Below, piece by piece: positions 17,049 to 62,809 of a stretch of 64,000 nucleotides of DNA. A program made the translations under genes and the position numbers. This DNA is from Hyphomicrobiales bacterium (GTDB lineage: Bacteria; Pseudomonadota; Alphaproteobacteria; Rhizobiales; Rhizobiaceae), in contig UCMW01000009.1 in the NCBI GenBank assembly GCA_900473745.1, positions 62,001 through 126,000 on the forward strand. Reading direction: 5' to 3'. Numbering within the stretch: the first letter of the stretch is position 1; each line of letters starts with the position of its first letter. Under the pieces are notes generated by a model that ran no database searches, was not told the origin of the DNA, and saw only the letters and a program-made list of their open reading frames with translations.

Positions 17049-17166
17049 TTGCATGGGCGAGGCCCCCGCCCCAACACCACACATCCCAAGATTTCACCCT
17101 ATCGCCCGCGCCACAACCGGCCTAGAAGAAACCCCCGCCGCCAGCAATATCCCCCTTGAGTCCGCC

Positions 17167-18405
17167 ATGAACATGCCCCGCACCATCCTCGTCGCCGCCC
17201 TTGCGGTCTCGCAGATCCTCGGCTGGGGCACGACCTATGAAATGCCGGCAGTGTTCGGCCGCGCCATGGCTGCCGATCTCGGCATCGCCAATGAGACCGC
17301 CTTTGCCGGGCTGACCGTGATGATGCTGACCATGGCCTTTCTCGGCCCCTGGACCGGTCGGATGATCGCCCGCCACGGCGCCTCCAGGATCCTCGCCATG
17401 GGCTCGGTCCTGATGGCGTCAGGCCTCGCCATGCTGGCCCTCTCCACCGGCCTTCTCACTTATGCCCTCGCCTGGCTCATCCTGGGCGTCGGGGGTTCCT
17501 TTGCGCTCACCGTGCCGGCCTTCGCCGCCGTCGTCGAACGCGAGGGGCGCGATTCCCGTCGCGCCATCGGCATTCTGATGATCTTTACCGGCCTCTCCTC
17601 GGCCGTCTGCTGGCCGCTGCTGACGCTCGCCGGTGAAGCCTTCGGCTGGCGCGGCGCGCTTTTTACCGCCGCCGGTGTGCAGCTCGTCATCGCGCTGCCC
17701 GTGCATCTCGGCATAGGCCGCATCGCGATCGCCCGCTCGGCCGAAGACCGCGCCGCCGACGCGATCGAGCCCATCGAGCTCAGCCGCCGCATGGCGACCG
17801 TCGCCTTCCTGCTGATCGCGCTCTCGACCTCGCTCGCCAGCCTCATGACCTTCGGACTGTCGCCACAGCTCTTGCATATCCTCGAACTGTCAGGCGCCAC
17901 CCCGGCGCTCGCGCTGCAGCTCGGATCGCTGCGCGCCGTCTTCGGCATCGCCGCCCGCGCCTTCGATCTCGTGCTCGGCAAACACACCTCGCCGATCACA
18001 ACGGGGCTCGCCGGCATGGCCATGCTCACGGGCTCGACCCTGCTTCTGATCTTCTCCTCGGGCACGCCGTCCAGCCTGCTCCTCTTCACCGCACTCTACG
18101 GCTTCGGCTCCGGCGTCACCACGCTTGCGCGCGCCACCCTGCCGCTTTCCTTCTTCTCCGCCAGCCGCTTCGCCCATCAGTCGGCGCGCCTGTCACTGCC
18201 GCAAAACCTCGCCAATGCAACTGCCCCCGTCCTGATGACAGCCGTCATCGACCGCGCCGGCATCAATGCGGGCCTGCTGCTCGCCACCCTCTTCGCCGCC
18301 ACGGGTTTCGCGGCGATCGTGGCGCTTGCGGTGATTGCAAGGCGGGGAAAGGTTGGTGGTCCTCTCTCCCCCCTTGCGGGGGAGAACGGAAAATCGAAGG
18401 ATTAG
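17167..18405 (+). CDS. MFS transporter inserted within the GTA cluster
   Basis: 412 residues with about 12 predicted membrane helices. It begins MNMPRTILVAALAVSQILGWGTTYEMPAVFG and has the loop 2-3 motif GRMIARHGASRILAMGS typical of the major facilitator superfamily. Substrate unknown. The ATG at 17167 is preferred over 17053, which would place repeat sequence in the protein. It lies opposite to the GTA genes, between g8 and g9. The last residues (PLSPLAGENGKSKD) are encoded by the flanking palindromic repeat, so the native C-terminus was probably replaced by readthrough into the element. Confidence 0.88.
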   Translation: MNMPRTILVAALAVSQILGWGTTYEMPAVFGRAMAADLGIANETAFAGLTVMMLTMAFLGPWTGRMIARHGASRILAMGSVLMASGLAMLALSTGLLTYALAWLILGVGGSFALTVPAFAAVVEREGRDSRRAIGILMIFTGLSSAVCWPLLTLAGEAFGWRGALFTAAGVQLVIALPVHLGIGRIAIARSAEDRAADAIEPIELSRRMATVAFLLIALSTSLASLMTFGLSPQLLHILELSGATPALALQLGSLRAVFGIAARAFDLVLGKHTSPITTGLAGMAMLTGSTLLLIFSSGTPSSLLLFTALYGFGSGVTTLARATLPLSFFSASRFAHQSARLSLPQNLANATAPVLMTAVIDRAGINAGLLLATLFAATGFAAIVALAVIARRGKVGGPLSPLAGENGKSKD

Positions 18406-22842: not shown

Positions 22843-23182
22843 TTGTTCATCTTTCGCTATTAGCTTCTGGATGTGCGCCGGCCGGTACGATCCCGCCCAA
22901 AAGGCCGCGGCCGGCGCAGCTTCTTTTCCCGGGCGCCATCGCCCGGCCTCTTCACATTCCAGATGAAGTGACGCCGGATTCGCGAGTCGGAAGAACCGCT
23001 TCGCAGGCTGTCCTCAGAAAGTGATTCCGGCTGTTCGGCGAGCCCGGAAATGACGTTTCGGCTGCTCCCGATCCGGCTCGCCCGCCGTTGCCATCCATCA
23101 AACTTCAGATCCCTGCAGAGTTTTCATCACCGCTTCACACAAGGTCGCTCTAGTGCGCCCGGGTGAACTTCGGGGGAAATTC
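22843..23182. other. 340-bp divergent intergenic region
   Basis: No gene. It lies between divergent starts and must hold the promoters of the PAP2 gene and the g4 block. One hairpin, CCGGGCG/CGCCCGG around 22939-22956, has no T run. No clear -35/-10 pair was seen. Confidence 0.4.
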
Positions 23183-24046
23183 ATGGCCTATGTTTCGGAC
23201 CTTTCACGCGCGCCGCGCGGCACCGTCCAGGAAAAACCGCTGCTTCTGGCGCTCCTCGTGACGCTGACGCTCTCTGCCGTCTTCGTCACGTTCCCGCAGA
23301 TCGACATCGCGCTCAGCCGGCTCTTCTATGTCGAGGGCGAAGGCTTTCCGGCGGGCCGGATCACAGCGCTCAACACCTTTCGCGCCTTCGGACAATATTT
23401 CCCGCTGACACTGACGATCGTGCTCGTCTTCGGCCTTGTGCTCAAGCTGGTCTACCCGTCACGCCCGTCGCTTTTTCCGCCGCGCTTCACGCTCTATTTC
23501 GCCAGCCTCTTTCTTCTCGGCCCGGCGCTCATGGTGAACGGCATTTTCAAGCCCTTCTTCGATCGCCCTCGCCCGCGCAGCATCGTCGAATTCGGCGGCC
23601 AGGATCTGTTCGTGCATGCCTGGGGCCTCGGCGGCGATGTCTTCGACGACCGCTCCTTCGTCTCCGGCGAGGCCGCCGTCGTCGTCTGCCTCATCCCGCT
23701 CGCCTTCTTCGTGCCGATCGTCTGGCGCCGCTGTGTCTTCGTCCTGCTCAGCCTGTTTGCCGCCTTGACCGCCCTCAACCGCATCGCTTTCGGCGCGCAT
23801 TTCCTCTCCGACGTGCTGATCGCCGCCGGCCTGATGGCGACCCTGTCGATCGCGCTCGCCTACGTCTTCTACGGCCGCACCGGCGCAAAAGCCTGCGACA
23901 TCAAGCTCGAAGCCGCCATGACCGACCTCGGCCACAGGCTGCACGCCGGGCGTCGAACCGCGATCGCTTCGATCAGCCGCCGTCTGGCTGTCGCGCCACT
24001 GTTGCTCTCGCCGGCGCCGTCAACGGGCAGCGACGGCAAGGACTGA
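23183..24046 (+). CDS. PAP2-family membrane phosphatase
   Basis: 287 residues with about six membrane helices. The ATG at 23183 has CGGGGGAA five bases upstream, better than a GTG at 23153. PAP2 motifs are KPFFDRPRPR (motif 1), SFVSGEA (motif 2, Glu in place of the usual His of PSGH) and NRIAFGAHFLSDV (motif 3, with the catalytic His). Members act on lipid phosphates, including lipid A 1-phosphate (LpxE) and undecaprenyl diphosphate. Which applies here is open. It is opposite in orientation to the GTA genes it interrupts. Confidence 0.85.
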   Translation: MAYVSDLSRAPRGTVQEKPLLLALLVTLTLSAVFVTFPQIDIALSRLFYVEGEGFPAGRITALNTFRAFGQYFPLTLTIVLVFGLVLKLVYPSRPSLFPPRFTLYFASLFLLGPALMVNGIFKPFFDRPRPRSIVEFGGQDLFVHAWGLGGDVFDDRSFVSGEAAVVVCLIPLAFFVPIVWRRCVFVLLSLFAALTALNRIAFGAHFLSDVLIAAGLMATLSIALAYVFYGRTGAKACDIKLEAAMTDLGHRLHAGRRTAIASISRRLAVAPLLLSPAPSTGSDGKD

Positions 24047-24994: not shown

Positions 24995-26158
24995 TCAATA
25001 CCCCACCGCCTCCCGCTTCTCCTCATCCGTCAAAAACCCAGCCGCGCCAACTCTCGCCCAGAGCGCATCGCGCTCGGCGGCCAGCCCCGCCACCGTGTCG
25101 AGATCCGGCACCAGCCGCAGCCCCTCACCCGTCAGCTCACCCAGAAACACCGAGAGCGAAGCCCCCGTCCGCGTCACCAGCGGCAGCACGGTCAGCCGAT
25201 AGAAGGCGCGGTTGGCTTCCTGATAATTGGCATAGGTATTGTCGCCGGGAATGCCGAGCAGCATGGGCGGCACGCCGAAGGCGAGTGCTATATCCCGGGC
25301 CGCCCCATTCTTCGCCTCGACAAAATCCATGTCCTTGGGTGAGAGCCCCATCGACTTCCAGTCGAGCCCGCCCTCGAGCAGCAGCGGTCGCCCGGCCCGC
25401 ATCGGCCCCGAATAGCCCTCGTCGAGTTCCACCTTCAGCCGCTGATACTGGTCGGCCGTGAGATTGCCGCCCTCCTTCGGCTGATAGACCAGAGCGCCCG
25501 AAGGCCTTGCCGAATTGTCCAAGAGCGCCTTGTTCCAGCGCCCCGCCGCGTTGTGCAGATCGAGCGCCACCTGCGCTGCCGCGAGCGGCGCAAAACCCTC
25601 GTGGTCGTCGAGCGGATGAAAGAGTTTCAGATGCAGGAGCCCATCCAGCGCAATCCGTCGCGCGCTCGTTCCGGCGCGATAGTCATAAGCCGAGGGCCAG
25701 CCGTCGGCACCTGTCACCACGCTCACCCGGTCGGGCCGAAGCAGATGCAGCTCCGCCGCCCCACCGGCCCCCACGGCCACCGCCTCGACATAGGCATTGC
25801 CCGAGAGCAGCAGCTGGCCATAGAGCGCTTCCAAGAAATCCGCCCCGGTCATCGCCCCGTTCGGTCGCGCCAGCAGCGCCAGCGCCGGATGCTCCGGCCG
25901 CTCATTCTCGCGCTGATAGGCGAGAAGACCGATGCTGGCCGCCGCTTCCGAGACCAAACGCACGCAGCGATGCGCCACCGGGTTCTTCATGAAGCCTTCC
26001 CGCGAAAGCGCCGCATAGGACCTTCCCGTCCACCGCGCCTCGCCCTCGCCCGCTATCAGCGCCAGCGCCGTTCCGGGGCGTGGATGCAGCGCCTTTTCGT
26101 CAGGCGCGGGGTTGCGATCCGGGGTTTGCACCCAGGGCAAACGGAAGGGGAGTTTCAT
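24995..26158 (-). CDS. GTA portal protein gp3 (HK97 family)
   Basis: 387 residues, starting MKLPFRLPWVQTPDR at 26158 with CGGAGGAA upstream. Portal features include VAHRCVRLVSEAAASIGLL, YGQLLLSGNAYVEAV, RPSGALVYQPKEGG and the late signature FGVPPMLLGIPGDNTYANYQEANRAFYR. It forms the DNA entry ring. Upstream lies the Doc toxin pair; downstream a composite palindromic element. Confidence 0.95.
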   Translation of the reverse strand: MKLPFRLPWVQTPDRNPAPDEKALHPRPGTALALIAGEGEARWTGRSYAALSREGFMKNPVAHRCVRLVSEAAASIGLLAYQRENERPEHPALALLARPNGAMTGADFLEALYGQLLLSGNAYVEAVAVGAGGAAELHLLRPDRVSVVTGADGWPSAYDYRAGTSARRIALDGLLHLKLFHPLDDHEGFAPLAAAQVALDLHNAAGRWNKALLDNSARPSGALVYQPKEGGNLTADQYQRLKVELDEGYSGPMRAGRPLLLEGGLDWKSMGLSPKDMDFVEAKNGAARDIALAFGVPPMLLGIPGDNTYANYQEANRAFYRLTVLPLVTRTGASLSVFLGELTGEGLRLVPDLDTVAGLAAERDALWARVGAAGFLTDEEKREAVGY

Positions 26159-26241
26159 GGGGTTCCTCCGAAGAAGCAACGATCCTGAGCCGGATCGGCG
26201 CAGTTCTCGTCAAAGCCGTATTTTCGCGCTACAGTGCAGCA

Positions 26242-26433
26242 ATGAGCTCAAACGCGAAACACACACAGGCTGGCAATCGACAGAGCCGGGATGGCGACGG
26301 TGGCGCGGTCCGAACGTCTGAAGGCTTGGCCGTGAAGACGGCGAAGCCGGTGTCTGCAACGCCGGATCTCGACGATTTCGTCGCCGATTTGCTCGTCACC
26401 GACAAGATCATTCTGGATCATCTGGCCAAGTGA
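26242..26433 (+). CDS. Antitoxin of a Doc/Fic toxin-antitoxin pair
   Basis: 63 residues, starting MSSNAKHTQAGNRQSRDGDG. The C-terminal half (VSATPDLDDFVADLLVTDKIILDHLAK) is the likely toxin-neutralising helix; the N-terminal half is polar. It ends 4 bp before the toxin start. No palindromic operator was seen within 80 bp upstream. It is divergent from the portal gene. Confidence 0.6.
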   Translation: MSSNAKHTQAGNRQSRDGDGGAVRTSEGLAVKTAKPVSATPDLDDFVADLLVTDKIILDHLAK

Positions 26434-26437
26434 GCGC

Positions 26438-26842
26438 ATGAGCGAGCCTCGGTGGATTGCAATCGATGACGTGATTGCGATCAACAAACGCCTGCTTCGC
26501 AGCACGTCGGAAAACCACTTCCTGCGTGATCGGTCCGCCCTTGAAGGCGCAGTTCATCGTCCACGTTTCCAGGCGGAGTACCGCGACATCTCATCCCTCT
26601 CTTGGCTTGCCAGTTGCCTGGTCCAGTCCATTGGAAAGGCACATGCCTTCGAGCAGGGCAACAAGCGGACAGCCTGGCTCGCGGGACGCTATTTCATCAC
26701 CGTCAACGGTTATTGGTTGATCCTTGATGCGGAGCGTCAGGAAAGCCTGAAACATGTGATCGAGGACCTGATCGTCGGCGATCATGAACCTTCATTGCTC
26801 GCGGACCAATTAGAGCCTTTGCTCAACCTGATCCGATCGTAG
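26438..26842 (+). CDS. Doc-like Fic-domain toxin (death on curing)
   Basis: 134 residues. The Fic motif is HAFEQGNKRTAW (H-x-F-x-x-G-N-K-R), as in Doc, which phosphorylates EF-Tu to stop translation. N-terminal WIAIDDVIAINKRLL and C-terminal LLADQLEPLLNLI fit the family. It is paired with the small upstream antitoxin. The stop codon nearly touches that of the convergent Dabb gene. Confidence 0.85.
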   Translation: MSEPRWIAIDDVIAINKRLLRSTSENHFLRDRSALEGAVHRPRFQAEYRDISSLSWLASCLVQSIGKAHAFEQGNKRTAWLAGRYFITVNGYWLILDAERQESLKHVIEDLIVGDHEPSLLADQLEPLLNLIRS

Positions 26843-27954: not shown

Positions 27955-28055
27955 AGAGCTCTGTCCGTTCACATTTACAAAGGTTTAACACTGTGGAACT
28001 TTCCGCTCATGCAGACGTTCTGGAAGCCGATACTTCCAGCATGAGGAGGGAAGAC

Positions 28056-28181
28056 ATGCAGACCACGATTTCGACCAAGACCGCAGCCCCGGCCACCATC
28101 CCGGCCCATGTCCTGCAGCGGCTCGAAAACGAATGGCGCCAGGTCCGCCAGCCGGCCCAGCCGTCGACTTCGGCGAAGTAA
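28056..28181 (+). CDS. 41-aa conserved-looking small protein
   Basis: MQTTISTKTAAPATIPAHVLQ... ends RQPAQPSTSAK: a Thr/Ala/Pro-rich start, a helical, charged centre (LQRLENEWRQVRQ) and a polar end. A near-ideal AGGAGGG lies 6 bases upstream and a strong intrinsic terminator 26 bp after the stop, so this is a complete single-gene unit. No signal peptide or membrane segment. Function unknown. It is on the opposite strand from the GTA genes, between g2 and the endolysin gene. Confidence 0.65.
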   Translation: MQTTISTKTAAPATIPAHVLQRLENEWRQVRQPAQPSTSAK

Positions 28182-28206
28182 ACCGATCCACCGCATTGCC
28201 TTATGA

Positions 28207-28236
28207 AGCCGGTGCCCGAAAGGGCGCCGGTTTTTT
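28207..28236 (+). terminator. Intrinsic terminator after the 41-aa gene
   Basis: CCGGTGCCC/GGGCGCCGG stem with a GAAA loop (one G-T pair), followed by TTTTTT. Confidence 0.85.
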
Positions 28237-28248
28237 CGTTTCGGCGAT

Positions 28249-28402
28249 TGCCGACTGAACTGATCCCCTCACTTGCGAAATTTGCCGCAACCGCGCGCTC
28301 CCTCTCCCCCATGTGGGGGAGAAAGCGAAATCGAAGGCTTGAGGTCAGCGCAAGCCGCCTAAACTTCAGATTTCGCAAGTGAGGGGATCGGTTCAGTTGG
28401 CA
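28249..28402. repeat. MITE-like element with long terminal inverted repeats
   Basis: Left end TGCCGACTGAACTGATCCCC and right end GGGGATCGGTTCAGTTGGCA pair over about 35 bp, continuing into CTCACTTGCGAAAT/ATTTCGCAAGTGAG. The interior holds CTCCCCCATGTGGGGGAG and one arm set of the CGAAGGCTT/CGCCTAAACTTC hairpin. The shortest complete example of the family here (154 bp). Confidence 0.85.
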
Positions 28403-28405
28403 CAA

Positions 28406-29899
28406 TCACATCCCCCTGATCCGCGGCTCCCCGCCGCCCTCCAGCATCAGCGCCGTCAGCGCCCAGACCAGCGCATCGAGCCGATCCGGCGAGCGCCCAT
28501 TCGACAAGCCGTCACTCCCGAAATCACACATCTGGTCCTCAAGCTCGACAAACCGCCCCGCATGAACCACCCGCCCCTGCTCGTACAAGGCCGCCACCGG
28601 CTCGGCGCGCAGGAACTTGCCGCGCGTCGCCCGAACCGTCGTCACCGGCAGCCGCGCCTCGATACCTTCGAGCACCGCACGCACCATGTCGCCGCCCTGG
28701 TTGACCTCGGCCACGACCCGATCCGCCTCGAACCGCCTGTAGGCAGCGACCACAGACCGCGCCCAGCCGGCCGGGCCCACTCCGTCGACCGAACAATCCG
28801 CCAGCACCACCGCCTGGCCATTCTCCTTCAATCCGGCAACAACAATGCCGCAACAGGCGGACACACCGCCCGCCGGCGGATCGACCGCGACCACGATGCG
28901 GCTCAGCGGTTCCGACAGCTTCACGACAATCTCGTCGATCCGCGCACGTTTCCACAAGGCGTCCGGCCGGTCCTCGATCAGCTCGCCGTCGAGCTCCTGC
29001 CGACCCAGCCGCGTGCCCCCGTACCGCGCCTGAAGCGCACCCAAAAAACCCGGCGCCAGATGCGCGGCATTCGCCGCCGTCGCCATTTTCGTCAGCCTGG
29101 TCGCCTCGTCCGCCATCAGCCGTTTCAACAGCGGCAACGGCCGCGGCGTCGTCGTCACCACCTGGCGCGGATCATCGCCCAGACGCAGCGCGAACTGCAG
29201 CATGTCAAAAGTCTCGTCGGCGTGTTTCCATTTGGCGAGTTCGTCGCACCAGGCGAGATGAAACTGCGGCCCGCGCAGGCTCTCGGGATCTTCCGAGGAA
29301 AAGATCTGCGCGATCGCCCCGTTCGGCCAGACCAGCCGTCTCCGCGAAATCTCGACCACCGGCCGCATGCGCCGCGCGATCCGGGACAGCCCCGAGGCCC
29401 CGTCGATCATCACCTCGCGGGCATCGCCCAGCGTTTCGGCCACCAGCGCGATCCTGAGATCCGTCCGCTTTCCGGCCGCCTGAACCTTTGCCTGCACCCA
29501 TTCGGCGCCGGCCCGCGTCTTGCCCGATCCGCGCCCGCCCAGGATCAGCCAGTTGCGCCAGTCTCCATCGGGCGGCATCTGCTCGGGCCGTGCCAGAAGT
29601 CGCCAGTCACGGGCGAGGAAGGCGAGATCGGAGGGCGTCAGGCTGGATAAGTCGGCAGCCGCGAGACCAGAGAGGTCGGCGAAACCGGCCGGGACATCCT
29701 GGCCGCCACCGTCCACCGCCAGCGCCCGCTTCTGTAGCGTCATATGGTCGACCAGGCCCGCAAGGCCTGCGCTTGCCCGGCGGAATTCTTTCGCAATGGT
29801 CTGAACGTCATCGGCCAGACCGCCGGCCAGACCGGATGCCGCCTCTATTCCCTTCGCCTGCCGATCCCGCTCCAGCCTCCCCAGGGATTTGGGCGTCAT
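28406..29899 (-). CDS. GTA large terminase gp2
   Basis: 497 residues, starting MTPKSLGRLERDRQ at 29899 with GAGGAG upstream. The ATPase domain shows Walker A GGRGSGKT (121-128), LAWCDELAKWKH (Walker B region) and TTTPRP coupling motif. The nuclease domain acids are in IVVAVDPPAGG, VVAEVNQGG and SPDRLDALVWAL. It packages DNA by headful in GTA. The first 80 residues, before LTPSDLAFLARDW, form an extension with no known motif. Confidence 0.95.
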   Translation of the reverse strand: MTPKSLGRLERDRQAKGIEAASGLAGGLADDVQTIAKEFRRASAGLAGLVDHMTLQKRALAVDGGGQDVPAGFADLSGLAAADLSSLTPSDLAFLARDWRLLARPEQMPPDGDWRNWLILGGRGSGKTRAGAEWVQAKVQAAGKRTDLRIALVAETLGDAREVMIDGASGLSRIARRMRPVVEISRRRLVWPNGAIAQIFSSEDPESLRGPQFHLAWCDELAKWKHADETFDMLQFALRLGDDPRQVVTTTPRPLPLLKRLMADEATRLTKMATAANAAHLAPGFLGALQARYGGTRLGRQELDGELIEDRPDALWKRARIDEIVVKLSEPLSRIVVAVDPPAGGVSACCGIVVAGLKENGQAVVLADCSVDGVGPAGWARSVVAAYRRFEADRVVAEVNQGGDMVRAVLEGIEARLPVTTVRATRGKFLRAEPVAALYEQGRVVHAGRFVELEDQMCDFGSDGLSNGRSPDRLDALVWALTALMLEGGGEPRIRGM

Positions 29900-29933
29900 C
29901 GGAAGTCTCCTCGAAGCATCCGTTCGCCGTAGT

Positions 29934-30156
29934 ACCAACGGAACCGCCCCCCCTCACTTGCGAAATCTGAAGTTTAGACGGCTTGCGCTCGCCTAAGCCT
30001 TCGATTTCGCTTTCTCCCCCACATGGCGGGAGAGGGAGCGCGAGATTGGCGGCAACGCCCCCTCTCCCCTTTGTGGGAGAGGTTGAAAAATCGAGGGCTT
30101 AGCCCGATCAGGGCAAAACATCAGATTTTGTTGGTGAGGGGATCCGTTGCGTTGCC
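29934..30156. repeat. MITE-like composite element upstream of g2
   Basis: Two facing units within terminal repeats ACCAACGGAACCG... and ...GGGGATCCGTTGCGTTG. Unit 1 has AAATCTGAAGTTTAGACGG/CGCCTAAGCCTTCGATTT and CTCCCCCACATGGCGGGAG. Unit 2 has CTCTCCCCTTTGTGGGAGAG and AAAATCGAGGGCTTAGCCC/GGGCAAAACATCAGATTTT. It separates g1 from g2 and would have to be read through for co-transcription. Confidence 0.85.
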
Positions 30157-30201
30157 GGTCCATCGACATGGCCCAGCATTGAGAAACCACCTGGTTTTCC
30201 C

Positions 30202-30669
30202 TCACGGCGGCCCCCGCCCCCCGGCCAGCCCCGAAACCTCCGTCTTCCGCGCCGCCAACGCCTGTTCCAGTCGCTCGGCCACCGCACGTTCGACGCGGGC
30301 CGCAATCAGCGCCTCGACCTCACCGCGCAAGACGTCCGGGTCGCGCGCCTCCAACTGCCGCTCCTCGGCATCGAGCCGATCACGCTCCAGCTGGCGCAAC
30401 AGCGCGTCGATCTTTTCCAGCGTGCGCACGATCAGCGCAATCGCATCGGTCGCGGCCTTGATATCGGCGCGCGCCTGCTTGGCCAGCCCCTCGTCGGCCC
30501 CGTCGAGGAGGCTCTCGGCCCCGGCCCGCAGGCGTCTGAAGAGGTCGAACTGGGCGCGCATCTCGGTGGTGAATTCAAAGAGCAGCGTCTCCAGATCCCC
30601 CGCCCCTGCCGCCTTCACCTCGATGATATCAGGCAGCGCCTCGGTCACCTGCGGATCCTCTTCCAGCAT
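30202..30669 (-). CDS. GTA gp1, probable small terminase (TerS-like)
   Basis: 155 residues, starting MLEEDPQVTEALPDIIEV with CGGAGGG seven bases upstream. It is almost entirely charged helix or coiled coil (FDLFRRLRAGAESLLDGADEG, LEKIDALLRQLERDRLDAEERQ, VEALIAARVERAVAERLEQALAARK). RcGTA g1 is a coiled-coil small terminase in the same first position. Sequence alone would not prove the role; position and helix pattern support it. Confidence 0.7.
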   Translation of the reverse strand: MLEEDPQVTEALPDIIEVKAAGAGDLETLLFEFTTEMRAQFDLFRRLRAGAESLLDGADEGLAKQARADIKAATDAIALIVRTLEKIDALLRQLERDRLDAEERQLEARDPDVLRGEVEALIAARVERAVAERLEQALAARKTEVSGLAGGRGPP

Positions 30670-30684
30670 GGCACCCTCCGAAAC

Positions 30685-30710
30685 GAAAAAAGGCCCGCAT
30701 GGCGGACCTT
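30685..30710 (-). terminator. Intrinsic terminator in the g1 leader (possible attenuator)
   Basis: On the minus strand AAGGTCCGC-CAT-GCGGGCCTT forms a 9-bp stem (one G-T pair) followed by T residues. It ends 16 bases before the g1 ATG and lies downstream of the only clear promoter, so it would stop transcription before the GTA genes unless overcome. Confidence 0.75.
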
Positions 30711-30770
30711 CGAAAAACCTTGCCGGACCCGCTTCAGGCCCCGCGGCCACAGCTTTCCGATCATGCAACA

Positions 30771-30799
30771 AACCTATCCGACGACCGTCACGGTGTCAA
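30771..30799 (-). promoter_or_regulatory. Sigma-70-type promoter of the GTA cluster
   Basis: On the minus strand TTGACA (30799-30794), 17 bp spacer, TAGGTT (30776-30771). The predicted start is near 30764, giving a leader of about 95 nt to g1 that contains the terminator at 30685-30710. Confidence 0.7.
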
Positions 30800-30928
30800 G
30801 GATTATTTTCCTATTTTTCGGTGTGCGGTGGGTCAGGGGGTGTGGTGTGCCACTGAGATCTGATATCACCAATGAATGATCTATCTATCGGATGTCTGTC
30901 TGCCTACAAAACTTGAGAATGGTGAACC

Positions 30929-31630
30929 GTGGTACTCGTATGTTATTTGGATGACAGTGGTGACAAACGGGATCCATTGGCAACAATCGCCGGTTATCTA
31001 ACTCCGTCTCAAAATTGGCTACAGTTTGAGAGGGAAGCTAAAGAACTCTTCCGGGCAATTGATCTCGAATATCTACACACGGTCGATCTACACCAACGAA
31101 AAAATGAATTCAAAGAATGGACCAGAGACCAAACTTTAGAATTCTGCAAAACATTTCACCGTATTCTTTCTCGCCATGTTGCCGTTGGCTTCGAGTGCTC
31201 TATTGACAAATATGAGTTTGAGAGGCGCAAGACATTTTATCAGGTCGGGCATCAAACATCCGCGTTGGCGATGGGATTTACAATCGTCGTAGATCGCATC
31301 CTTAAACATGATGGTGTCGCCTCTGTGTTAGGCGAGCCAGGAGTTGATATTTCGTTCGTGGTTGAAAGCGGTCACGCGAATAACGCTAACGTTTTGGCAA
31401 CGTTCAGCGCTTTTCAGAAGAAAAATCCCAGCTTGTTTAATTCTCTGAATTTCGAGGATAAAAAGGACAGAATTGCTCTTCAGGCAGCTGACTTTCTGGC
31501 CTATTTCTCACGTCGTCTCAGGCTGAAAAAGAGATCAGATACAAGATACGACGCTGAGTTGCAGTTCTTCCGCGAAGCGACAGAAGGAATGCAGATTAAT
31601 CATTTCTTGGCTGTTGATTTCGAAGCTTAG
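30929..31630 (+). CDS. DUF3800 protein, AT-rich, probably acquired
   Basis: 233 residues with the DUF3800 start VLVCYLDDSGDKRD and the C-terminal DKKDRIALQAADFLAYFSRR, which together look like an RNase H-like fold with acidic residues. Base composition and codon use are clearly more AT-rich than every neighbour (for example TTT, AAA, TTA codons), pointing to horizontal transfer. GTG start at 30929; ribosome site weak. The gene sits immediately upstream of, and divergent from, the GTA promoter. Members turn up in phages and defence islands; no function is assigned here. Confidence 0.8.
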   Translation: MVLVCYLDDSGDKRDPLATIAGYLTPSQNWLQFEREAKELFRAIDLEYLHTVDLHQRKNEFKEWTRDQTLEFCKTFHRILSRHVAVGFECSIDKYEFERRKTFYQVGHQTSALAMGFTIVVDRILKHDGVASVLGEPGVDISFVVESGHANNANVLATFSAFQKKNPSLFNSLNFEDKKDRIALQAADFLAYFSRRLRLKKRSDTRYDAELQFFREATEGMQINHFLAVDFEA

Positions 31631-31648
31631 TTAGCTCGTGCAGCCCCC

Positions 31649-31990
31649 TCATCCCGCCTTCGACCTGTTCCGTCCCGCACTCTTCGCCTCATACAGCGCC
31701 AGATCCGCCCGGGTCACCAGGTCGCGCGGATCGCGCAGGCCGCTCTCCCTCGGGCCGTCGAGGCGGGCGAGATGCGGGCTGGAAAGCTCGCGGACCATGC
31801 GCACCAGCCGGTCGGCGAGAAAGGCCCCGCCGGTCTCGGTTTCCACGGCAAAGAGCAGGGTGAATTCCTCTCCGTCATAGCGCGCGGCAAAACCGTCATG
31901 GCGGGCGGCAAAGGCCTGCAGTGCCGAGGCGATCCGGCGCAGCATCCGGCAGAAAAGATCGACCGCCGCGGTCCCGCCACTGGCAGGCGC
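31649..31990 (-). pseudogene. Truncated diguanylate cyclase (GGDEF) remnant
   Basis: Only the C-terminal half of a GGDEF domain remains: LRRIASALQAFAARHDGFAA, then RYDGEEFTLLFAVE (signature degenerated to DGEEF) and DLVTRADLALYEAKSAGRNR. The upstream DxDxFKxxND half and any sensor domain are absent; preceding sequence loses similarity near 31960 and runs into the next remnant. It is unlikely to be active. Confidence 0.7.
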
Positions 31991-32003
31991 GCGTGGCGCC
32001 TTC

Positions 32004-32273
32004 TCAGGCTTCCGGCCCGCCGAACTGCTCCCAGGCGGTCATGGCGTCGCCCGCACACATCAGCGAGGGACCGCCGCCCATGTAGACGGCGAGGCCAAGG
32101 CTCTCCTCGCACTCGGCCTTGCTGCAACCGAGCTTGATCAGCGCTTCCGTGTGGAAACCGATGCAGCCGTCGCAGCGGGCGGAGATCGCAATGCCCAGCG
32201 CGACCAGTTCCTTCATCTTCGTCGACACGGGAGACAGCAGGCAGCAGAGAGTTGTCTCTGTCCGCCCTGTCAC
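32004..32273 (-). pseudogene. 5'-truncated carboxymuconolactone decarboxylase/AhpD-like gene
   Basis: The core KMKELVALGIAISARCDGCIGFH with the redox CxxCxxxH and AVYMGGGPSLMCAGDAM is intact. The usual N-terminal 40 or so residues are replaced by about 15 unrelated ones from a GTG at 32273 with no ribosome site. AhpD-like proteins reduce peroxiredoxins; this copy may be dead or partly folded. With the adjacent GGDEF remnant it suggests a deletion-prone junction. Confidence 0.65.
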
Positions 32274-32299
32274 GACGTTACCGGCTGCAGGCTATTGCC

Positions 32300-32503
32300 T
32301 CACACCTCCCGCACCGGCGTGTAACCCGCCTCGCGGATCGCCTGTTCGGCGAGAGCCGCATCGCCCTCGACAAAGGCCTTGCGGGCAGCGAGATCGATCG
32401 TCACCGCGCGTCCCGGCAGGACCTCCGTCAGCGCCTTCACCACGGTCTTTTCGCAATGGCCGCAGGTCATGTCCTCGATCTTGAAGACGGTTTGTCCGAT
32501 CAT
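32300..32503 (-). CDS. copZ: Copper chaperone CopZ-like, single HMA domain
   Basis: 67 residues. MTCGHCEKTVVKAL carries the metal-binding CxxC, and AIREAGYTPV closes the ferredoxin-like HMA fold. The ATG at 32503 has AAAGGAAAG upstream; the frame start at 32548 lies in the upstream gap. It would carry Cu(I) to the CopA ATPase or to CueR, both encoded just upstream on the same strand. Confidence 0.88.
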   Translation of the reverse strand: MIGQTVFKIEDMTCGHCEKTVVKALTEVLPGRAVTIDLAARKAFVEGDAALAEQAIREAGYTPVREV

Positions 32504-32575
32504 GATGGTCTTTCCTTTGCCGCGCGTCGCACATCTCGTCGTCTGCAAATTGTCATCAGTCCCACGGGGGCAAGG

Positions 32576-33025
32576 TCAATCCCCGCAGCAGTCCTCGTCT
32601 GCCGGTTTCCCGGCGGTGTTTTGCCGCACCGGTCGCCCTTCGAGATCGGCCAGGATCGGGCAATTCGGCCGGTCGTTTCCCTGGCAGCGGTCGGCGAGAT
32701 GGAAAAGCGTATCCCGCATCGCCTGCATTTCGGCGATTTTCGCCTCCAGCTCCTCGACATGATGAAGCGCCAGGGCCTTCACCTCGGCGCTTGCCCGCGC
32801 CTTGTCGTCCCAAAGCTTCAAAAGCCGCTCCGTCTCCTCCAGCGAAAAGCCGAGGCTGCGCGACCGGCGCACGAAACGCAGCCGGTTGACGCTGTCCGCG
32901 TCATAAACCCGGTAATTGGAAGCCGTGCGCCCCGCCGGCGCAATCAGCCCGATCTCCTCGTAATAGCGGATCATCTTGGCCGAAACGCCCGAGGCATGCG
33001 AGGCTTCACCGATGTTCATCGTCAT
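32576..33025 (-). CDS. cueR: MerR-family copper regulator CueR
   Basis: 149 residues. N-terminal MerR helix-turn-helix (MNIGEASHASGVSAKMIRYYEEIGLI), SNYRVYDADSVNRLRFVRRS, then a dimerisation helix. The metal loop CQGNDRPNCPIL has the two cysteines of Cu(I)/Ag(I) sensors. An extra C-terminal tail ends DEDCCGD. A matching dyad promoter lies upstream of copA. Confidence 0.9.
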   Translation of the reverse strand: MTMNIGEASHASGVSAKMIRYYEEIGLIAPAGRTASNYRVYDADSVNRLRFVRRSRSLGFSLEETERLLKLWDDKARASAEVKALALHHVEELEAKIAEMQAMRDTLFHLADRCQGNDRPNCPILADLEGRPVRQNTAGKPADEDCCGD

Positions 33026-60745: not shown

Positions 60746-61705
60746 TCACCCCATCTTCGGCCGGAAATCCTCGTCTCCCCAATGGCGCGGGCGGGATCTG
60801 GAAGGCGGTGGGGCGTAGTGGCGGGCGAGGGAAAGAAGGGCGGCCCGCAGCATGAGCTTGGCGGATCGGGCAGGCCATTGGCGTTCGCGCTCGACGGTTT
60901 CCAGGCCCTTGCCGAAGCAACAGACATCGAGGGCGACGCCGGAGAGTTCCGGGCCCATGGCTTCGACGGCGCGGGCAATGCGGGTTCGGGCGGCGAGCCT
61001 GTTGTCCGCAAGCTCCACGGCAGGCGGCGGGGCGCCTTTCGCGCGGGCCGAGAGCCGGGGCTCCCAGCTTGCCGTGATGCGGGGCTGAAGGCCGGCGAAA
61101 TCGAAGTCGGCGGCGAGGCGTTCCCCGGCGGAAACGGCATCCTGGGACAGGAAGCTGCGGCCATCCTTCTCCCTCAGGCGCAGAAGTGGAAAGAGCGGCG
61201 ATTGCTGCAGGTTGCGGCGCACGGCCTGACGCCCCGCGGCGGTCACCAGCGTTTCGAGCGCAATCTGACGATGCTGGCTTGAATGGGCCTCGTCGGGCAG
61301 ATCGCAGAGATCGCGACGTAGCCAGGCCGCCGTCTCGGGGGTGGCGATCAAGCCTTCGGGGGAAGATGCGAGCAGACCGTCTGCAATCAGGCGGGCGACG
61401 AGTTCCGGGTCCGGACCTGCCGTTTCAGCCAGCGGGTGATCCACGTCCGACGGGGAGACAGGATCGCCATGGGGTCGGTGTGCAAGCGGACCGGTGAGTG
61501 CGCGGCGGAGGATCTGGCGGATCTGTTTGCGCTCGGCGCGGGAAAGGCTGCCGGGAGGCGCATAAATGGCGGTCGTGCGCGACACTTTTTGGCTGGACGC
61601 ATCTTGCGAAGGAGTATGCATGGCGTCGCTGTCCTTCGCTTGTGCCCGGGCGCGTCCGGACTGACGGATGCCGTGCGGCTGGTCGATGTTCTTCTCCTGC
61701 GTCAT
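60746..61705 (-). CDS. DUF6456 protein
   Basis: 319 residues. The C-terminal half is the DUF6456 domain: SFLSQDAVSAGERLAADFDFAGLQPRITASWEPR and LDVCCFGKGLETVERERQWPARSAKLMLRAALLSLARHY. The N-terminal half resembles a winged-helix region (DPELVARLIADGLL, TPETAAWLRRDL). Probably a DNA-linked regulator. It starts 14 bp after the HTH gene with GGGGAGG upstream, so the two form an operon. Confidence 0.82.
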   Translation of the reverse strand: MTQEKNIDQPHGIRQSGRARAQAKDSDAMHTPSQDASSQKVSRTTAIYAPPGSLSRAERKQIRQILRRALTGPLAHRPHGDPVSPSDVDHPLAETAGPDPELVARLIADGLLASSPEGLIATPETAAWLRRDLCDLPDEAHSSQHRQIALETLVTAAGRQAVRRNLQQSPLFPLLRLREKDGRSFLSQDAVSAGERLAADFDFAGLQPRITASWEPRLSARAKGAPPPAVELADNRLAARTRIARAVEAMGPELSGVALDVCCFGKGLETVERERQWPARSAKLMLRAALLSLARHYAPPPSRSRPRHWGDEDFRPKMG

Positions 61706-61719
61706 GATCTCGCCTCCCC

Positions 61720-62160
61720 TCAGATGCGCCGGCCGGCGAGCAGGTGCACGGCGCTCGCCATGCGCTCGACAATCGCGACGAAGGTGTCATAGGCGCGGTC
61801 GTCGCGGCGGTCTTCCACCATGCGGCAGGCATGGCCGACCGTGGAGCGATCGCGACCGAAGGCTTCCGCCACCTCTCCCATGGGCATGGAATAGGCGACA
61901 TGGCAGACATACATCGCCACCTGGCGCACATGGCTCGTCGCCCGTCGTCCAGGATCCTGGTCGCTTTCGAGACCGGTGGAGCGCAGCAGTTCCTCCGTCA
62001 ACTGGCGCACGATCATGCAGAGAAGACGCCGTTCGGGAGTGAGAGGCCGCAGGCTCGTCCCGTCCGAATGAGAGGCTTCCGTTTCGCCGGCGTCCCATTC
62101 GAGCGGGAGGCCTGCCGGCAAACTTGGCGTTTGGGGTGGAGAGGAAGGATCGACGGTCAC
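61720..62160 (-). CDS. HTH protein with DnaA C-terminal-like domain
   Basis: 146 residues. RQVAMYVCHVAYSMPMGEVAEAFGRDRSTVGHACRMVEDRRDD is the DnaA domain IV-type helix-turn-helix (DRSTV at the recognition helix). No ATPase domain. The N-terminal 45 residues are Pro/Ser-rich. It may bind DnaA-box-like DNA. GTG start at 62160 with GAGGTG upstream. Operon with the DUF6456 gene. Confidence 0.85.
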   Translation of the reverse strand: MTVDPSSPPQTPSLPAGLPLEWDAGETEASHSDGTSLRPLTPERRLLCMIVRQLTEELLRSTGLESDQDPGRRATSHVRQVAMYVCHVAYSMPMGEVAEAFGRDRSTVGHACRMVEDRRDDRAYDTFVAIVERMASAVHLLAGRRI

Positions 62161-62320
62161 GGCGCACCTCGTAATAGGATTTTCTTCCTATCAAAGCTAG
62201 CAGACCTGACCGGTTTTTGAACCCCATGGATTTAGGGGTGTAGACATTTCAAGTTTCCGGCACGAGACTTCTACAACGCCTCATCAGAGGAGGCTGATTA
62301 ATTTCCTATTCACAAATACG

Positions 62321-62380: not shown

Positions 62381-62809
62381 TTATTTGGCGCGCTTGCGGC
62401 GCTGGCCGAGGCCCATTTCCTTGGCGAGGCGCGAGCGCGCTTCTGCATAGGCCGGGGCGACCATCGGATAGTCGGCCGGCAGGCCCCACTTCTCGCGATA
62501 TTCTTCCGGGGTCATGTTGTAATGGGTCATCAGGTGACGCTTGAGCGACTTGAACTTCTGACCATCCTCGAGGCAGATCAGGTAGTCGTCCTCGATCGAC
62601 TTGCGGATCGGAACCGGAGGCTTCGGCTTTTCGACGACAGCCGGCACCGGGGTTGGTGAAGCTGTGCTGTTCAGAGCCTGATGGACATCGGCGATCAGGG
62701 TTGTCAGGTCGCTGACCTGAACCATGTGGTTGCTGACATAAGCCGAGACGATATCGGCGGTCAGTTCCACCAGCAACTGCTGGCTGGGACCCTGTTGGAC
62801 TTCACTCAT
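62381..62809 (-). CDS. mucR: Ros/MucR zinc-finger transcriptional regulator
   Basis: 142 residues. [39 protein letters not shown] contains the prokaryotic C2H2-type zinc finger, and the N-terminal [19 protein letters not shown] is the oligomerisation region. MucR/Ros act as H-NS-like silencers controlling exopolysaccharide, motility and cell-cycle genes, and repress their own genes. The AT-rich 400 bp upstream fits autoregulation. Confidence 0.93.

Follow-up and report, generated by a model that had tools for sequence, protein, structure and literature searches.

The window analysed here, a stretch of 64,000 nucleotides from a Hyphomicrobiales bacterium, carries on its minus strand a structural gene cluster of the gene transfer agent (GTA) type, in which Pfam identifies terminase, portal, protease and capsid genes. 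The cluster opens with g1, which is preceded by a short leader and a promoter, and a gafYZ gene pair lies 30 kb from this promoter in the same window. The features to which we refer below are the following:

28406-29938, minus strand: large terminase gene of the GTA cluster (PF03237, PF17289)
30202-30669, minus strand: g1, first gene of the GTA cluster, ATG at 30669, no Pfam match
30686-30711, minus strand: predicted intrinsic terminator of the leader, a 10-pair stem (30711-30689) with six T's (30691-30686), from terminator scan, folding and comparison within the genus
30717-30747, minus strand: first, weaker terminator-like hairpin followed by T's, its structure not conserved, from folding and comparison with relatives
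30745-30760, minus strand: conserved initial transcribed block TCGGAAAGCTGTGGCC, from conservation
30760-30765, minus strand: -10-like CATGAT (nAnnnT) at the predicted start, candidate sigma-dependent pause element that contains the ATG of a leader frame, from conservation and the precedent of 21Q (PMC6606751)
30771-30776, minus strand: -10 element TAGGTT, 17 nt from the -35, from sequence, conserved among relatives
30784-30794, minus strand: palindrome ACCGT-G-ACGGT in the -35/-10 spacer, candidate GafZ-binding element, from conservation and a position like that of ZBE, QBE and ABE (PMC11150451, PMC6606751, PMC7969949)
30794-30799, minus strand: -35 element TTGACA, from sequence, conserved among relatives
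30799-30813, minus strand: AGGA-N6-TCCT inverted repeat TAGGAAAATAATCCT abutting the -35, probable RogA-type operator, from window search and conservation in the genus
60746-61705, minus strand: gafZ homologue (DUF6456), 319 aa, candidate anti-terminator
61720-62160, minus strand: gafY homologue (Bac_DnaA_C, DnaA C-terminal domain), 146 aa
62176-62190, minus strand: second AGGA-N6-TCCT operator TAGGAAGAAAATCCT, before gafYZ, 16 nt ahead of the listed gafY GTG

Several plus-strand genes lie amid the minus-strand GTA genes. Two of them (17053-18405 and 23153-24046) we take to be an MFS transporter and a PAP2 phosphatase, and two small ones between terminase and portal (26080-26842) are presumably a Phd/Doc-type toxin-antitoxin pair (HAFEQGNKRTAW motif). 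On the other side of g1, a DUF3800 gene (30929-31630, plus strand) separates the GTA promoter from the end of a GGDEF gene (31649-31945, minus strand). This gene looks like an insertion, because in some relatives, such as L003 and L007, the GGDEF gene ends directly upstream of the promoter.

The promoter lies where a preliminary description of this DNA, made from the letters alone, had placed it, with TTGACA (30799-30794) and TAGGTT (30776-30771) separated by 17 nt on the minus strand. The predicted transcription start, 30764, coincides with the ATG of a 39-codon frame (MIGKLWPRGL...) which that description had also reported and which does exist. Its terminator, too, is found as a hairpin with six T's ending 16 bases ahead of the g1 ATG, except that the stem, given then as 9 bp, comprises 10 pairs, six of them G-C, around a loop of 3. 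Hairpin and tail fold at -15.4 kcal/mol (z -4.0), a value equalled by 1 of 200 shuffles, and the whole 95-nt leader is unremarkable as a folded RNA (z -1.07). With a threshold of -12 kcal/mol or lower, the 64 kb window contains six terminator-like sites on the minus strand and three on the plus strand, and two of these nine stand in tandem within the leader of about 80 nt, their U-tracts starting near 30717 and 30691. A loose terminator scan of 29500-32000 returned four sites, which is the level of shuffled sequence (mean 3.2, sd 1.8), and a sigma-70 promoter scan of the window did not list the GTA promoter, because TAGGTT has only three of the six consensus letters. What makes the predicted promoter and hairpin convincing is comparison with relatives, not consensus scores.

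For this comparison the leaders of the genus were retrieved through g1, which was found in 61 of 63 genomes, and not through the promoter, and they therefore give an unbiased view of the upstream DNA. The pattern TTGAC-N2-CGT-N-ACG-N-T-N7-TA(G/A) occurs upstream of g1 in 53 of the 61, and a one-letter variant occurs in six more (L005, L008, L058, L032, L035 and L039), so that, at one mismatch or less, 59 of the 61 genomes have the promoter proposed from the single sequence ahead of g1. In the other two (L028 and L061) the contig ends about 500 and 210 nt away. The distance between promoter and g1 match ranges from about 100 to 1000 nt across the genus. The exact start-site block ATGATCGGVRARYTGTGGC is present as a single copy, upstream of g1, in 20 of the 63 genomes. 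Palindromic intergenic repeats (AATCTGAAGTTTAGGCGGCTTGCG...CGCCTAAGCC) are also seen near the GTA loci of several relatives, upstream of g1 (L004, L010, L011, L012 and L019).

In order to extend the comparison beyond the genus we took the first 80 (L124-L203) of at least 120 stretches from a contig scan and 30 loci from a family search (L094-L123). A GTA gene match no more than 1.6 kb downstream was the condition for treating a locus as a leader; 78 of the 110 loci qualified, and removal of seven duplicates left 71. A position table was built from these 71, among the matches listed, and from 51 distinct genus leaders (two genus leaders with an identical first stretch were left out); the 71 had been picked by the pattern, whose fixed letters carry no weight in that set. 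Four parts are conserved in the table: TAGGAAAATAATCC at the -35, CGTGACGGT in the spacer, TAG..TT at the -10, and, at the start site, nAnnnT followed by CGGAAA..TGCGG.

Of 394 genomes in the family, 216 contain the exact promoter pattern, and these represent 72 of 109 genera; by our own reading of the table, the reversed-pattern control gave 4. Among 318 genomes sampled across the class three carry it, one of them the genome of the window itself, so in its exact form the pattern does not hold for the class as a whole. In viral contigs a slightly longer pattern occurs 43 times, in 41 cases ahead of matches to the GTA proteins of the window, and one contig of the viral collection with GTA genes (L279) carries two copies of the motif (902 and 3561), 2.66 kb apart. 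Among the matches listed, those with a name belong mostly to Rhizobiales and Sphingomonadales. Matches in unrelated phyla (for example L135, L136, L140, L148, L149, L158 and L199-L201) come without a GTA gene match and look like chance; we discarded them.

A further conserved element lies at the predicted start itself. Here the first position after the n is A in 54 and the last position T in 53 of 56 genus leaders (a set that excludes L028, L032, L035, L039 and L061), and both letters are present in 53 of the 56 and, outside the genus, in 61 of the 71 leaders among the matches listed. A and T at these positions are the signature of a -10 element. The middle of the hexamer varies (CATGAT, TACGGT, CATAGT, CATCGT, TACAGT), and the whole is shifted by one position in the genus leaders L026 and L027 and, by eye, in a sphingomonad group. 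Judged from this alignment, the ATG previously read as an initiation codon forms the variable centre of a -10-like element, the T of which may instead belong to a conserved TCGG block. Just past the start, the block TCGGAAA-N-CTGYGGC (30745-30760) is conserved to about the same degree as the promoter; a pause element alone does not explain this.

The terminator was then scored by a strict rule within 200 nt of the start. By this rule 33 of 53 genus leaders have one, whereas each of five dinucleotide-shuffled sets gave 2-4 and the opposite strand gave none. A hairpin like that of the preliminary description is conserved in these 33, well over shuffles, and the other 20 fail the strict rule. In five of the latter the hairpin lies beyond 200 nt (L036, L037, L038, L049, L059), in four the stem is kept and the U-tract broken (L006, L007, L009, L017), and in eleven no terminator is found by the strict rule, namely in a clade of eight (L040, L041, L044-L047, L050, L057), in L060, in L021, which has weaker hairpins, and in L034, where a longer hairpin passes a looser rule. 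The clade of eight retains the promoter. Among the 41 genus stems in our table we distinguish 12 versions; none has fewer than seven pairs, and G-C to C-G swaps occur at several of the pairs. These stems were picked by hand (four have poor U-tracts) and each hairpin was folded alone, which favours pairing, so the table shows no more than that pairing persists through 12 different forms of the stem. A MAFFT alignment misaligned the stems and was left out of the analysis. Outside the genus, 21 of the 71 leaders among the matches listed have a terminator within 200 nt (shuffles 1-5, other strand 1), sphingomonad-type loci included (L127, L147, L178, L186). Conservation thus supports terminator-based control in the GTA leader; the predicted promoter module is widespread, and terminators in the leader are common in the genus yet lineage-dependent.

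GafZ is the candidate for a protein that acts on such a leader. In the window gafY adjoins gafZ, the arrangement expected of a GafYZ-controlled GTA, and the two genes are adjacent in 21 of 21 loci examined. Upstream of them lies a 142-aa frame (62381-62809) which we take to be mucR. A mucR or helix-turn-helix gene in this place is part of the synteny described for Hyphomicrobiales (Sherlock and Fogg, PMC9638019). Across the family, 213 of the 316 genomes that have gafZ also have the exact promoter motif, as do 3 of the 78 that lack gafZ; if the count is confined to genomes bearing a GTA terminase, the figures are 206 of 293 and 2 of 11 (Fisher p = 7e-4, not adjusted for kinship). This co-occurrence partly reflects the presence of a GTA, and the exact pattern is absent from 103 of the 316 gafZ genomes.

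A structure model of GafZ (mean pLDDT 72.5, pTM 0.45) had no Foldseek match at E of 0.001 or lower. Entries for sigma region 4 appeared at E 0.4-1.2, with probabilities of 0.87-0.98 and Z about 8, and residues 228-300 of the model match one of them, 6dv9_F, with Z 8.5 and rmsd 2.3 over 71 aligned residues. The predicted resemblance is weak; it fits the published sigma-like helix-turn-helix, and a likeness of this level can be a common arrangement. In the N-terminal part of the model many winged-helix regulators match at similar Z. The likeness to 21Q (6p18_Q; rank 42, Z 7.2, rmsd 8.6) is too poor to be claimed.

The inverted repeat that abuts the -35 suggests a further level of control. Searching the window for this palindrome with up to two mismatches gave three matches, two of which are the GTA palindrome read on both strands (shuffle mean 0.12). 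In the whole genome, with up to one mismatch, it occurs at five places and the reversed control at none: the GTA promoter, gafYZ, a site before a 222-aa S24-domain gene, and two others. The S24-domain gene is located at G000:C12, with AGGATTTTATTCCT about 100 nt ahead of its start, and at a guess its product could be RogA. When TTGAC was attached to the search, the GTA site was found at zero mismatches, and at three mismatches the matches were at chance level (4+4 versus 5+3 in the control). A one-mismatch palindrome of the AGGA-N6-TCCT type is found at L316, around 1501 (G000:C27:231209), in the 3' end of a large gene. That gene looks ATPase-like to us, and a nearby gene we take to be resolvase-like. 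A loose pattern (AGGA-N6-TCC or TAGGA-N6/7-TC) finds a site at most 350 nt upstream of the gafY match in 11 of 21 loci. In Caulobacter, the gafYZ promoter bound by RogA contains GGAA-N4-TTCC inverted repeats, and RogA enrichment is described only at gafYZ and CCNA_02002 (PMC9632790). An operator of this type is present before gafYZ here as well (GGAA-GAAA-ATCC, 62176-62190), one letter off. If the operator on the GTA promoter is RogA's, this promoter would also be directly repressed in the present group, and if so, direct repression together with a consensus -35 would replace the activation by GafY and IHF known from Caulobacter.

The Caulobacter crescentus system provides the closest frame for these elements. 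There, GafZ requires an inverted repeat between -35 and -10 (Tran and Le, PMC11150451), joins the elongating polymerase with NusA, NusE and NusG, and allows read-through of a terminator located after the first gene of the cluster (PMC11150451). Its gtaT cluster resembles ours in having the gafYZ pair, an inverted repeat in the -35/-10 spacer and a terminator early in the cluster (PMC11150451), and also in the GGAA-N4-TTCC-type operator before gafYZ (PMC9632790). However, the terminator follows the first gene there and precedes g1 here; the Caulobacter -35 is degenerate and needs GafY and IHF, whereas a consensus TTGACA is conserved here; and the palindrome differs in sequence from the Caulobacter GafZ element (PMC11150451). 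The RogA-type operator, unlike that of Caulobacter, is here also on the GTA promoter itself (PMC9632790). Between g1 and the terminase no strong hairpin-plus-T site was found on the minus strand, and the GC-rich repeats of Caulobacter have no T-tract.

The same layout is known from antitermination by AlpA, lambda Q and 21Q. AlpA at alpB of Pseudomonas aeruginosa has its binding element between -35 and -10 and bypasses an intrinsic terminator immediately before the first gene, as would be the case here, although here it would be a domesticated phage cluster that is controlled (PMC7969949). The late promoters of lambda Q and 21Q share the spacer element and the -10-like pause element at the start, 21Q requiring both the former and, in the part transcribed first, a -10-like sequence, and 21Q also has a helix-turn-helix like that of sigma region 4 (PMC6606751). 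They differ in that 21Q uses direct repeats where a palindrome is found here, kinship by sequence not being shown, and in the terminator, which here lies about 80 nt from the start (PMC6606751). According to PMC11150451, GafZ has no sequence or structural similarity to known anti-terminators, AlpA included. In Rhodobacter capsulatus the GafZ-like C-terminal half (DUF6456) of GafA likewise binds a fragment with -10, -35 and start, but GafA is a fused protein that recruits through the omega subunit (PMC6363796, PMC9638019), and the word "terminator" is absent from the main texts of these two papers on RcGTA GafA.

A literature search pairing "gene transfer agent" with "intrinsic terminator" found no paper, most subscription journals being outside its scope, and no title or abstract start among the matches listed describes such a GTA promoter in Rhizobiales. 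The preliminary description had suggested a new layer of GTA regulation. This is not entirely so, given the GafZ antitermination reported for Caulobacter (PMC11150451); what is new here is that the terminator lies in the leader, that a -10-like element is present and that an operator sits on a -35 of consensus sequence.

By sequence, the three cis elements of a Q- or AlpA-type promoter are found at this locus: a spacer element, a -10-like element and a terminator before the first gene. We consider it reasonably probable, at roughly 60%, that together they make the GTA promoter a switch of the Q type, controlled by processive antitermination: before GTA particles can be made, a partner protein probably has to carry the polymerase beyond an early stop. 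From the elements, their conservation and the presence of gafYZ we infer the following steps of binding, pausing, termination and read-through. RNA polymerase would start near 30764 from the near-consensus sigma-70 promoter, and a RogA-type repressor on the palindrome at the -35 would block this initiation. Without GafZ, transcripts would end at the leader hairpin about 80 nt on, and this default termination would keep the packaging and capsid genes silent despite any leaky initiation. Once gafYZ is expressed, GafZ would bind the palindrome in the -35/-10 spacer, load onto a polymerase paused at the -10-like start-site element, and allow it to pass the leader terminator and continue into g1 and the rest of the cluster.

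The other ways of using a terminator in a leader rely on the RNA. Attenuation through translation of the leader frame, which the preliminary description had raised as a possible mechanism, would take advantage of the 39-codon frame of the window, and an aligned ATG is indeed present in 28 of the 56 genus leaders and lies one base off in two more. The other 26 have no ATG at all, with ACG (10), ATC (6), ATA (5) or ACA (5) in its place. Where the ATG exists the frame has 7 codons in seven leaders (MIGKLWP followed by a stop, and variants), 11 to 49 in others, and is fused to g1 in three of the 28, for an overall range of 7 to 198 codons; further, leader lengths in the genus differ by numbers that are not multiples of three. 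A conserved translated frame was not found among the 56 leaders, nor were shared regulatory codons among those with the ATG, and there is no convincing alternative structure, so we rejected this reading as hardly credible. Hence, within the earlier proposal of attenuation or antitermination, terminator-based control stands on its conservation and leader translation falls, and protein-mediated antitermination of the GafZ/Q type fits better. A riboswitch or an RNA-binding protein acting on the RNA could likewise use a terminator placed in a leader, and in the 21 closest leaders four pairs (CGGA/TCCG) are possible between the start block and the 5' arm of the terminator. This best alternative amounts to -1.24 kcal/mol and was formed in 1 of 21 single folds, and the 5' arm becomes CTCGGG in other members. 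The search for a conserved antiterminator pairing in these 21 leaders was negative, their first 55 nt show no conserved pairing (consensus energy 0.0), and the terminator is their sole RNA structure of note. Rfam gave five matches in 28000-33000, all under the gathering score and none inside the leader. We therefore discarded the RNA switch too, as a very remote prospect. The lack of an Rfam match in the leader also speaks against a further reading, in which promoter and terminator produce a distinct small RNA, some 80 nt long and conserved at its 5' end, that acts in trans. Small RNA genes are indeed built of a promoter followed by a terminator, and the first 20 nt or so are the most conserved transcribed part; but the middle of the leader is variable and its length changes, and the exact start block, in the 20 of 63 genomes which have it, is single-copy and upstream of g1. 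There is a slim chance that this reading is correct.

Two further explanations leave antitermination aside. GafYZ and a RogA-type repressor might control initiation only, the hairpin being a passive brake or a stabiliser of the 5' end of the RNA. The position of the operator on the -35, the clade of eight genomes that keeps the promoter without the hairpin, and the activation of initiation by GafY and IHF in Caulobacter are all in agreement with this, and we regard it as unlikely but worth serious attention: hairpin and U-tract have been kept through 12 stem versions, far over shuffles in the genus, and simple repression has no role for the spacer palindrome or the -10-like element. Alternatively, the terminator could insulate the cluster from read-through of upstream genes, as the end of a GGDEF gene on the same strand in some relatives (L003, L007) might suggest. 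An insulator would be expected ahead of the promoter, however, the nearest upstream gene is divergent here (30929-31630, plus strand), and promoter and hairpin stay constant while the upstream context changes between genomes, all of which makes this a rather improbable role.

More tentatively, and with the odds against it, the decision to produce GTAs could be taken after initiation across the Rhizobiales: a strong promoter guarded by a repressor would fire by default, and the polymerase would pause at a -10-like element under the palindromic GafZ site and stop in the leader unless GafZ has been loaded. In that case GafZ would represent a further class of Q-like factor, unrelated in sequence and retained in a domesticated phage across hundreds of species, and the terminated leader transcript of about 80 nt, conserved at its 5' end, may itself have a function. 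The elements described here provide a testable map of control elements for the GTAs of rhizobia and their relatives, and can be condensed into a single-line sequence pattern with which GTA promoters are located in genomes. Our results suggest that antitermination, as reported in Caulobacter, is more general among GTAs, and that the GTA promoter itself can be a direct target of repression.
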